Of a DNA stretch of 43,576 bases, positions 12,189 through 15,762 are shown piece by piece. Within the stretch, counting starts at the first letter, position 1. The number at the start of each line of letters is the position of its first letter. Origin of the DNA: an uncultured delta proteobacterium (GTDB lineage Bacteria; RBG-13-61-14; DRUE01). The notes under the pieces are model-generated. The model was not told the origin of the DNA, made no database searches, and worked only from the letters and a program-made list of their open reading frames with translations. The stretch is taken from contig CAIYYW010000310.1 of NCBI GenBank assembly GCA_903930515.1, positions 1 to 43,576 of the forward strand. Reading direction: 5' to 3'. Made by a program: the position numbers and the translations under genes.

Positions 12189-12818
12189 TCAAAAGCCTTC
12201 TTCTTTCAAACGCTCCAGGCTTAAAGCCCCGCGGCCTTTGCCCAGGAACTTCTCCACATATTTCCCCAGCAGGTCCGCCTCCAGGTTGACCGGGTCCCCG
12301 ACTTTCTTCCCGCCCAGCGCAGTCCGCTTCAAGGTTTCCGGGATCAGCATCACCGAGAACACCCGGCCGGAAACCCGGTTGATGGTCAGGCTGATCCCGT
12401 CAATCGCGATCGCCCCTTTTTCCACCAGGTATCTCTTCAAATCCTCCGGAGCCTCCAGTTCCCATTCCTGGAACTCCCCGGCCCGGCTCAGCTTTTTTAT
12501 TTTGCCCACTCCGTCAATATGCCCGAGCACGAAATGCCCGCCCAGCCGGTCCGACAGTTTCAGCGCGCGCTCCAGGTTCACCCTCTCTCCGACCTTTCTG
12601 GACTGGAAAGTGGTCCGGGATAAACTCTCCTTGCTCAATCCCACCCAGAAAGAATTCCCGGATTTTGACGCCACCGTGAAGCAGGCGCCGTCCACCGCCA
12701 CCGAATCGCCCAAAGCCGTTTGGAAATCTTTTCCCGGCTCGACCAGGATTTTTTTCCCGCTCGAGAGCGGCTGGATCCGGGAGATGGTTCCGACTCGTTC
12801 AATCAATCCCGTGAACAT
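12189..12818 (-). CDS. ribE: Riboflavin synthase alpha subunit
   Basis: A 209-residue enzyme that dismutates two lumazine molecules into riboflavin and the ribityl-pyrimidine. It opens MFTGLIERVGTI, the near-universal N-terminus. The two homologous beta-barrel lobes are each recognisable: DSVAVDGACFTV with GHFVLGHIDGVG in lobe one, and GAIAIDGISLTINRV in lobe two. The C-terminal helix holds the trimer-forming segment. It starts 1 nt after the ribD stop. Length is typical. The symbol ribC is also used for this gene in some genera. Confidence 0.97.
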   Translation of the reverse strand: MFTGLIERVGTISRIQPLSSGKKILVEPGKDFQTALGDSVAVDGACFTVASKSGNSFWVGLSKESLSRTTFQSRKVGERVNLERALKLSDRLGGHFVLGHIDGVGKIKKLSRAGEFQEWELEAPEDLKRYLVEKGAIAIDGISLTINRVSGRVFSVMLIPETLKRTALGGKKVGDPVNLEADLLGKYVEKFLGKGRGALSLERLKEEGF

Positions 12819-12819
12819 C

Positions 12820-13908
12820 TCACACCTCGTGGAGGAACGCGGTTAAGAGGAAATCGTTTCCGATCCGCCGGAGTTCCGGCTGATACAGAGGCAAAGCCTG
12901 ATCCAGCCGGCGCGGAATTTTGCCCGCGATCATCGCTCTTGATTCTTCGTCCGCCAATATTTTCGGCGCGTAAAAAAACGCGATCTCGTCCACCAGCCCC
13001 TGGTCCAAAAGCGACCCCGCCAGTTCCGCCCCGCCCTCGCATAAGACGCTCGCGATCCGGATCTTTCCCAGCCGGGTCATCAATTCCTTTAAATTCACCC
13101 GCCCATTTTGATCGCTCCTGGTTTCAATAATCCGCACCCCCAGCCGGGCGAGTTCAATTTTTTTTCTCGCCCCGGCCTTGCTCGAGCAGGCGATCAGGGC
13201 CGGAGATTGAAAGGCCCGGGCAACAACCGGAGTCCGCAGAAAGCCGTCCACGATCAACGGCATCGGTTGATGAGCCTTGCCCTGGAGACGGGCCGTGAGC
13301 GATGGGTCGTCCTTGAGCGAGGTGCCCGCTCCCACCATCACCACTTGGACCTTGCTCCGGAGCCGGTGAACATATTTCCGCGCCGGCTCCCCGGTGATCC
13401 ATTTGGAAGTCCCGCTCCGGTCCGCGATCCTTCCGTCCGCGGTCGCGGCCAGCTTCAGGATCAGCCAGGGTTTTCCGGTGGTAATGTATTTCACAAAATG
13501 CCGGTTGAGCACGCGACATTCCGGTTCCAGGATTCCGCTCACCACCTCGATCCCGGATGCCTTCAGTTTCCGGAATCCCCTCCCGGAAACCAGCGGGTTT
13601 GGGTCCCTCATCCCGGCCACTACTTTTTTCACCCCGGAACGGATCACCAATTCCGCGCAAGGCGGGGTTCGGCCCCAGTGGGAACAAGGCTCCAGGTTCA
13701 GCACCAGGGTGGAGCCGCGGGAACGGCTCCCGGCTTTTTGGAGCGCCTTCACTTCCGCGTGCGGCTCTCCCGGTTTTTCAAAGTATCCCTCGGAAACGAT
13801 CCGGCCGGATTTCACCACCAGCGCCCCCACCATCGGGTAATGCTCGGTCCCTCCCTCGGCCTTTCGCGCCAGGTAAAGCGCCCGCTTCATCAATGGCTCA
13901 TAATCCAT
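12820..13908 (-). CDS. ribD: Bifunctional riboflavin deaminase/reductase
   Basis: A 362-residue two-domain enzyme for steps two and three of riboflavin synthesis. The N-terminal ~145 residues are a zinc cytidine-deaminase-fold domain: HAEVKAL supplies the zinc histidine and general-base glutamate, and EPCSHWGRTPPCAELVI the two zinc cysteines. The rest is an NADPH-dependent reductase of the DHFR-like fold, with LKLAATADGRIADRSGTSKW and, near the C-terminus, SVLCEGGAELAGSLLDQGLV. It lies 5 nt after nrdR and 1 nt before ribE. Confidence 0.97.
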   Translation of the reverse strand: MDYEPLMKRALYLARKAEGGTEHYPMVGALVVKSGRIVSEGYFEKPGEPHAEVKALQKAGSRSRGSTLVLNLEPCSHWGRTPPCAELVIRSGVKKVVAGMRDPNPLVSGRGFRKLKASGIEVVSGILEPECRVLNRHFVKYITTGKPWLILKLAATADGRIADRSGTSKWITGEPARKYVHRLRSKVQVVMVGAGTSLKDDPSLTARLQGKAHQPMPLIVDGFLRTPVVARAFQSPALIACSSKAGARKKIELARLGVRIIETRSDQNGRVNLKELMTRLGKIRIASVLCEGGAELAGSLLDQGLVDEIAFFYAPKILADEESRAMIAGKIPRRLDQALPLYQPELRRIGNDFLLTAFLHEV

Positions 13909-13913
13909 TTCCG

Positions 13914-14396
13914 TTATTTCCCGGATTTGGCCTTCTCCTGCTTCTGCCGGTCCAGCAATTCCTTCAACTCGTCCATAAACTGGTTGATGTCCTTGAACGA
14001 CCGATACACGCTGGCAAACCGCACATAGGCCACATGGTCCAGGTGATACAGCTCCCGCATCACTTCCTCGCCCACCACGGTGGACGCGATTTCCTTCTCC
14101 CCGCTCTCCAGCAGCTTATGCTCAATCTTGTCCACCACCTTCTCCAAAGTGGTGATGCTGATCGGCCGCTTCTCGCAGGCCTTTTTCAGCCCGAGCAAAA
14201 TCTTCATCCGGTCAAACGGCTCCCTCCGTCCGTCCTTCTTGATCACCAGCGGCATCACCTCTTCCACTCGCTCGTAGGTGGTAAAGCGCCGGCTGCATTC
14301 CATGCACTCACGGCGCCTTCGGATCACGGCGCCATCCTTGCTTAGCCTGGAATCAATCACGCGGTTGTCCAGGTCTCCGCAAAACGGGCACTTCAT
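13914..14396 (-). CDS. nrdR: Transcriptional repressor NrdR
   Basis: A 160-residue regulator of ribonucleotide reductase genes. Residues 1-40 form a zinc ribbon ([17 protein letters not shown] with a second pair in [12 protein letters not shown]), followed by an ATP-cone ([20 protein letters not shown]) that senses ATP/dATP. The C-terminal tail is lysine-rich. No ribonucleotide reductase gene is in the window. The gene overlaps the dCMP-deaminase-like gene by 4 nt. NrdR next to ribD is a common bacterial arrangement. Confidence 0.97.
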
Positions 14397-14866
14397 CTTT
14401 TTCCCTCCTCAAACTTGATTATTTGGATCCCGGCCTCCTTGATCAAAGCCCGCGCCAGCCGGTCCGGGTAGCCTTCTCCATAAATAATTTTCTTGATCCC
14501 CGCGTTGATCAGCATCTTCACGCAGATACTGCAGGGAAGGTTGGTGGCATAGAGGCTGGAGCCTTTGATCGGAACCCCGTGATACGCCGCCTGGATGATC
14601 GCGTTCTGCTCCGCATGCAAGCCCCGGCAAAGCTCCGCCCGCTCCCCCGATGGAATCTCCCGCTCCTCCCGCAAACACCCAACCTCGTAACAATGCTTCA
14701 ACCCGCTCGGCGCCCCGTTATATCCGGTGGACAGTATCCGCTTTTCCTTAACCAGGATCGCCCCCACCGACCTCCGCATACAGGTGCTCCGCCGGCTTAC
14801 CAGCTTCGCCAGCTCCAGGAAATATTGATCCCAGCCCGGCCGCACCAGAGTTTTCCTCTTCATCAT
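14393..14866 (-). CDS. comEB: dCMP deaminase / ComE operon protein 2 family
   Basis: A 157-residue zinc deaminase. It shows [20 protein letters not shown], the zinc and catalytic residues in [13 protein letters not shown] (HAE), and [19 protein letters not shown] with the PCxxC zinc cysteines. These identify the dCMP deaminase/ComEB group, which makes dUMP for dTMP synthesis. It heads the long minus-strand gene chain. The start is one of two consecutive ATGs and has only a weak ribosome site. Upstream sequence holds repeat hairpins and a terminator rather than a clear promoter. Confidence 0.92.
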
Positions 14867-15086: not shown

Positions 15087-15117
15087 AAAAAGGCCTGCTC
15101 CAATTTCTTGGACCAGG
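15087..15117 (-). terminator. Terminator of the 23-residue lysine-rich ORF
   Basis: On the minus strand CCTGGTCCAA-GAAA-TTGGAGCAGG forms a 10-bp stem with one G.G mismatch and a GAAA tetraloop, followed by CC and five T. It begins about 15 nt past the stop codon of the small ORF at 15132-15203, which supports that ORF as a separate expressed unit. Confidence 0.7.
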
Positions 15118-15131
15118 GTTAGGTGTTTGGC

Positions 15132-15203
15132 TTACTTTCTCTTTTTGGTTTTCTTGACGGCTTTTTTCTTCGCTACTTTTTTGTGCGCTTTTCCACAGAC
15201 CAT
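15132..15203 (-). CDS. 23-residue lysine-rich micropeptide
   Basis: A 23-codon ORF starting Met-Val-Cys-Gly-Lys-Ala-His and continuing as KKVAKKK / AVKKTKKRK: 11 of 23 residues are lysine, plus one arginine, one histidine and one cysteine. It is supported by a strong AAGGAG about 8 nt before the ATG, its own terminator about 15 nt after the stop, and a promoter and leader upstream. A 62-codon frame extends further upstream but would read through the leader terminator and lacks a comparable ribosome site, so the short form is preferred. The composition suggests binding to nucleic acid or ribosomes; no family is recognised. Confidence 0.6.
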   Translation of the reverse strand: MVCGKAHKKVAKKKAVKKTKKRK

Positions 15204-15288
15204 TGTGTTTCTCCTTTCTTTAAGATTGGTTTTAGACTTGGTACCCCAAAATTCCCGCGATGAGTGGAGCTCTTTTTCGCGCGTGTAT

Positions 15289-15328
15289 AAAAAAACCGGA
15301 GAGGAAGGCATGGCCTTCATTTCTCCGG
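15289..15328 (-). terminator. Leader terminator / attenuator hairpin
   Basis: On the minus strand CCGGAGA..GAAGGC-CAT-GCCTTC..TCTCCGG forms a two-part stem (outer 7 bp, inner 6 bp) followed directly by seven T. It lies about 80 nt downstream of the predicted transcription start and about 85 nt upstream of the 23-residue ORF. It could end a short non-coding RNA or attenuate the ORF. Confidence 0.8.
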
Positions 15329-15402
15329 CAATCGGTTCGTCCTGTCTCTATCTCGCTCAATCCGGGCTCTCTCTTTCTCCACCACCACCCGGGACTCATC
15401 CT
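15289..15402 (-). ncRNA. Putative structured leader RNA
   Basis: A ~114-nt minus-strand transcript is inferred between the promoter at 15409-15437 and the terminator at 15289-15328. It contains a CCGGG...CCCGG pairing and a longer-range GTCC...GGAC pairing before the terminator stem. I could not match it to a known riboswitch, 6S, SRP, tmRNA or RNase P pattern. It may be an sRNA or a cis-acting leader of the 23-residue ORF. Confidence 0.45.
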
Positions 15403-15408
15403 TTTCTT

Positions 15409-15437
15409 AGTATGCCATATTTTTCAAAGCTTGTAAA
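15409..15437 (-). promoter_or_regulatory. Sigma70-type promoter for leader RNA and micropeptide
   Basis: On the minus strand TTTACA (15437-15432), a 17-nt spacer and CATACT (15414-15409) match a -35/-10 pair (5/6 and 4/6). Predicted start is near 15402. Confidence 0.55.
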
Positions 15438-15686: not shown

Positions 15687-15762
15687 GGGCGATTAGCTCA
15701 GTGGATAGAGCACCGGCCTCCGGAGTCGGTTGTCGCGGGTTCAAATCCCACATCGCCCTCCA
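15687..15762 (+). tRNA. tRNA-Arg (anticodon CCG)
   Basis: A 76-nt cloverleaf with acceptor GGGCGAT/ATCGCCC, D-arm GCTC-AGTGGATA-GAGC with A20, anticodon stem CCGGC/GTCGG with loop CTCCGGA (anticodon CCG, reads CGG), and T-arm GCGGG-TTCAAAT-CCCAC with one C.A mismatch. CCA is encoded (15760-15762). The discriminator base is T, unusual for tRNA-Arg. It lies on the strand opposite to lysS, 72 nt from the lysS stop. Confidence 0.93.

Follow-up and report, generated by a model that had tools for sequence, protein, structure and literature searches.

On the minus strand of a contig from an uncultured delta proteobacterium, a small gene couples a lysine-rich open reading frame (ORF) to a structured RNA and, judged by sequence comparison, is real, conserved and restricted to its genus. 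The contig (CAIYYW010000310.1, assembly GCA_903930515.1) was analysed over its full 43,576 nt and is termed the window. Located between lysS/tRNA-Arg and the dCMP-deaminase gene, the unit consists of a promoter-like pair, a leader, a terminator, a Shine-Dalgarno sequence, the ORF, a structured RNA (termed RNA-2) and a terminator, all on the minus strand, and it is present as a single copy per genome. The preferred reading, given a probability of about 55%, is one transcription unit that is partly terminated in its leader and yields a basic, probably nucleic-acid-binding micropeptide together with a structured 3ʹ RNA.

Conservation of the unit and its lysine-rich ORF

In the set of genomes searched, the phylum is represented by three: that of the window (G000), that of a sister species in the same genus (G001; GTDB contig CAIUDS010000257.1, an 'uncultured delta proteobacterium' from lake sediment) and a third from the same order (G002). 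The whole unit is collinear in G001, ahead of dCMP deaminase and nrdR. Conservation in relatives had been set beforehand as the test of a preliminary description of this DNA, which had proposed a micropeptide gene with an upstream terminator. That proposal is supported by G001, which has the promoter region, the leader hairpin, a terminator, the ribosome-binding site (RBS) and an ORF of 24 aa in which no lysine is lost.

The background for this comparison was taken from the fourfold degenerate sites of dCMP deaminase and nrdR, of which 56% (63/113) are identical between the window and G001. Identity reaches 90% in the RBS block, 80% in RNA-2, 76% in the ORF and 72% in the promoter region, followed by the second terminator (71%), the leader (68%), the spacer (56%) and the leader terminator (44%). 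Relative to background, conservation is significant for RNA-2 (Fisher p 2e-4), the ORF (p 0.003) and the RBS, and weakly so for the promoter region (p 0.02). RNA-2 is kept more strictly than the nucleotide sequence of the peptide ORF.

The ORF (15203-15132; MVCGKAHKKVAKKKAVKKTKKRK) encodes 23 residues, among them 11 Lys, 1 Arg and a Cys-Gly near the start. As the preliminary description had it, an AAGGAG precedes this short basic frame (15216-15211), here found to lie inside the 90%-identical block 15224-15204. Among the 47 small ORFs of the window that are preceded by a Shine-Dalgarno sequence, it alone contains at least 40% Lys plus Arg. Its G001 counterpart, MKCGKMQKKVAKKKPSKKKAKKGK, retains 11 of 11 lysines; three of the lysine codons differ, each by a synonymous A/G exchange at the third position. 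Differences across the ORF fall 6/3/9 by codon position, the single indel is 3 nt long and removes or adds one codon in frame, and the stop is kept as TAA/TAG. Residues other than lysine drift (V2K, A6M, A15P, V16S, R22G), and Met-x-Cys-Gly-Lys is retained. At the level of sequence, this pattern is what selection on the lysines of a translated peptide would leave, and translation is supported by the codon pattern together with the conserved RBS. The peptide most likely binds RNA or DNA by charge. Longer ORFs that cross the site (62 aa on the minus strand and 144 aa on the plus strand) were rejected, as they are not open in G001.

Searches for further copies returned the same two carriers. A back-translated peptide pattern recovered only the two known copies in 116 genomes, and the peptide had no match in Pfam, NCBIfam or PDB; in the Pfam and NCBIfam searches, the window copy was queried from codon 2 and the G001 copy complete, and 23 residues make a weak query. 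A pattern for RNA-2 that allowed two mismatches found it in both carriers and in none of the other 288 of 290 genomes. An RNA-2 covariance model run on 145 genomes gave two matches beyond the carriers, with E values of 0.02-0.04 per genome that are at chance level over 143 genomes. RNA-2 was not found in viral contigs and phages, and in plasmids there was one weak match, limited to the 3ʹ hairpin/terminator part. When GTDB contigs were searched with dCMP deaminase, the next-ranking relative inspected was L115, where the gene upstream is glyA-like and no lysine-rich ORF is present.

The preliminary description had not recognised the leader as a known family, and Rfam covariance models agree. 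No element of the unit reaches a gathering threshold; only the tRNA does, and the sub-threshold matches, none of them near the cut-off, fall mostly on the terminator hairpin. Two specific candidates were rejected. ARAGORN yields tRNA-Arg alone in the window and in L021, and the bona fide tmRNA of G001 is elsewhere (C704). For 6S RNA (RF00013), there is no match in G000 or G001. As a separate observation, 6S RNA is present in G002 (C81:64965-65143) and was not found in either genome of the genus, an absence that is uncertain because these drafts are 93% and 87% complete.

Leader, leader terminator and the structured RNA after the ORF

The -35/-10 pair reported in the preliminary description was found as TTTACA-17-CATACT at 15437-15409. 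This sigma-70-like site, with TGG ahead of the -10, is one of two in the 1.5 kb scanned, where 0.6 would be expected, and it would place the transcription start near 15402. In G001, the -35 and the TGG are kept; the -10 (CAACAT) is weak, and no site was called there. Adjoining the -35 is AATGCATTTTT (15451-15441), identical in G001 and possibly an operator or UP-like element; it has a palindromic core, AATGCATT, and may be the site of a regulator.

Of the leader and its two internal pairings as first described, the leader itself stands, and only the hairpin at 15396-15359 is common to G001. This hairpin, of the AGTCCCGG/CCGGGATT type with a purine-rich loop (GTGGTGG...AGAGAGCC), can pair in both species, within a region that is 68% identical. 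The strong terminator with seven T is likewise present (15329-15289), its hairpin alone having a predicted energy of -21.6 kcal/mol. At the corresponding place in G001, 14 bp form a hairpin of -21.1 kcal/mol that is followed by six T, although sequence identity is only at background level. The function of the leader terminator has probably been kept, since the sequence has turned over, yet both hairpins are near -21 kcal/mol and carry a T run. Leader and terminator together fold no better than shuffled sequences (z -0.7 and -1.1).

The most strongly folded part of the unit lies after the ORF. The hairpin at 15117-15087, described earlier as the terminator of the ORF, proves to be a GAAA-capped hairpin within a longer conserved RNA; the tract that follows it is CCTTTTTG in the window and CCTTTTCG in G001, and the actual terminator (15045-15005) comes some 40 nt later. 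Most of the segment 15128-15005 falls beyond the coordinates originally flagged (15087-15437). This segment, comprising RNA-2 and the terminator, folds with z scores of -5.2 and -5.4 in the two species and is the strongest feature of the unit. The two-sequence consensus fold outperforms column shuffles by a wide margin, with a z that is owed largely to the terminator.

RNA-2 itself (15128-15046) is predicted to form four helices: P1 (15125-15121/15082-15078), the P2 hairpin (15117-15094) with a GNRA loop, P3 (15077-15067) and P4 (15059-15046). Two strands, AAACACCTAACCCTG and GGTGAGCGGAGCGCTTAATTA, are nearly invariant, and a 22-nt block contains one variable base. In the variable hairpin, pairing survives changes from U-A to G-C, A-U to C-G and C-G to U-G, and the GNRA loop is kept (GAAA, GCAA). 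Two pairs of the consensus are changed on both sides, and 47 of 48 cells are paired (97.9%), a proportion that falls to at most 49% when the helices are slid. Because the carriers are two species only, this covariation is thin: the observed score was reached in 124 of 500 shuffles, which is not significant, and the compensatory changes are suggestive. The alignment contains two further compensated pairs in the terminator, whose stem is about 17 bp long. RNA-2 may act as a 3ʹ UTR that regulates or stabilises, or it may be an RNA product in its own right.

Proposed transcription of the unit and rival explanations

In the preferred reading, transcription would start at the TTTACA/CATACT promoter and the unit would extend from about 15402 to 15005. 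Part of transcription would stop at the leader terminator (15289), giving an RNA of about 114 nt, and the remainder would read through, probably with the assistance of a factor, as the leader has no strong antiterminator of its own. The read-through RNA would be translated from AAGGAG/ATG into the 23-aa basic peptide, and its 3ʹ part (15128-15046) would fold into the conserved four-helix element and end at the strong terminator. In the stretch that separates the leader terminator from the ORF (15288 to 15204), the scan called no promoter-like site in either the window or G001; the conserved RBS and ORF therefore appear to need read-through from upstream, which makes a single unit with partial leader termination the simplest reading. 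Counting against one unit is the poor -10 in G001. In addition, the leader terminator could be strong enough for a full stop, with the ORF then using a promoter that the scan missed.

Such an arrangement would amount to two genes, a 114-nt sRNA (15402-15289) followed by an independent peptide gene with its 3ʹ RNA. The preliminary description had also offered an sRNA with a small gene behind it, and the first half of that proposal, a leader-derived sRNA of 114 nt, is possible. The terminator is strong in both species without a competing fold, and the spacer behind it is unconserved (56%), as expected between genes. Two genes are nevertheless unlikely, as the second would lack a visible promoter in both species and the conserved block ahead of the ORF is essentially the RBS. 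The riboswitch that had been suggested for the leader found no support. When both sequences were refolded with the terminator pairs penalised, no mutually exclusive antiterminator emerged, the best fold without the terminator being worse by 12.4 kcal/mol in the window and 10.9 kcal/mol in G001; without a competitive alternative fold, a switch would depend on a protein or some other factor. Moreover, the element is single copy and matches nothing in Rfam, and no aptamer recurring before related genes was seen, the element being absent from G002 and the other genomes searched.

A different role for the 3ʹ end would make RNA-2 and its terminator the riboswitch or attenuator of the downstream operon, with the ORF as a leader peptide. 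This operon, dCMP deaminase-nrdR-ribD-ribE, is compact in the window (12189-14866, minus strand). In both species, the unit stays beside dCMP deaminase and nrdR while everything upstream differs, and a terminator behind a structured RNA is the classical arrangement. The idea is improbable nonetheless: nothing in the predicted folds competes with the closed terminator hairpin, no Rfam class matches, the operon of G002 lacks the unit, and a conserved TGATAARTTAAAG directly before the operon ATG suggests a start of its own. The operon probably has a separate promoter (14905-14864, minus strand), as TGATAAATTAAAG in the window and TGATAAGTTAAAG in G001 stand immediately before the ATG, with no Shine-Dalgarno sequence. 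Given this probable start, RNA-2 makes more sense as the 3ʹ portion of the transcript that would encode the peptide. An untranslated ORF, kept as an A-rich stretch of RNA, is a little less plausible still; its nucleotide identity is near that of RNA-2, but the codon-position pattern, the synonymous-only changes in lysine codons, the in-frame indel, the kept stop and the conserved RBS all argue against it. Hardly credible is a classical leader peptide that attenuates lysS through its lysine codons. Eleven such codons are present and lysS adjoins in the window, but gene order contradicts the proposal, as lysS is upstream of the element rather than downstream, the downstream genes (dCMP deaminase, nrdR, ribD, ribE) are not lysine-related, and the place upstream is taken in G001 by a tRNA-Arg together with an oxidoreductase-like fragment. 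In that genome lysS is not linked to the unit, and since the upstream neighbourhood differs in this way, the link to lysS is incidental.

The surroundings of the unit have features of their own. The dCMP deaminase seems to start right after the conserved element, with no Shine-Dalgarno sequence, pointing to a leaderless transcript whose start codon would be the second ATG (14863). The gene order shared by the window and G002 couples deoxynucleotide control with riboflavin synthesis. Both carriers have a tRNA-Arg(CCG) next to the unit (15687-15762, plus strand, and L021:206-281); the copies are 88% identical and in opposite relative orientation, and their outer neighbours differ, as though the intervening segment had been inverted or the unit had moved.

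Comparison with known systems

In the order of its parts, the unit is like terminator-attenuated leaders and riboswitches, with a promoter, a leader of about 114 nt and an intrinsic terminator followed by an RBS and an ORF. Unlike these systems, it has no conserved competing antiterminator that could be found, its leader conservation is modest, and all that it would control is one peptide of 23 aa.

Histone H1-like and HU-like nucleoid proteins carry lysine-rich tails. The KKVAKKK...KK-type composition of the peptide resembles these tails and suggests nucleic-acid binding, whereas the peptide is free-standing at 23-24 aa, without a folded domain and with a conserved Cys-Gly. A bolder proposal, for which the odds are long, is a self-contained ribonucleoprotein gene in a lineage without a known counterpart, in which one short transcript supplies the lysine-rich peptide as well as its ligand, the structured RNA, and the leader terminator sets the output. 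If it is true that the peptide binds its own RNA, the result would be an unusually small natural ribonucleoprotein. In the literature searched, no lysine-rich micropeptide coupled to a structured RNA matched the unit, which represents a compact, testable peptide-plus-RNA gene of the sort missed by annotation pipelines.

About ten sRNAs are known to act both as riboregulators and as mRNAs, among them Spot 42 with its 15-aa protein (PMC10339803). Unlike such dual-function sRNAs, the unit carries one terminator more, placed between its promoter and the ORF, and has a peptide that is almost pure lysine and an RNA without an Rfam relative. It is nevertheless to a dual-function RNA that the unit is most alike, by layout rather than by assigned membership: it shares with them a short free-standing transcript, here a predicted one, a tiny conserved ORF, a conserved structured RNA and a terminal intrinsic terminator.
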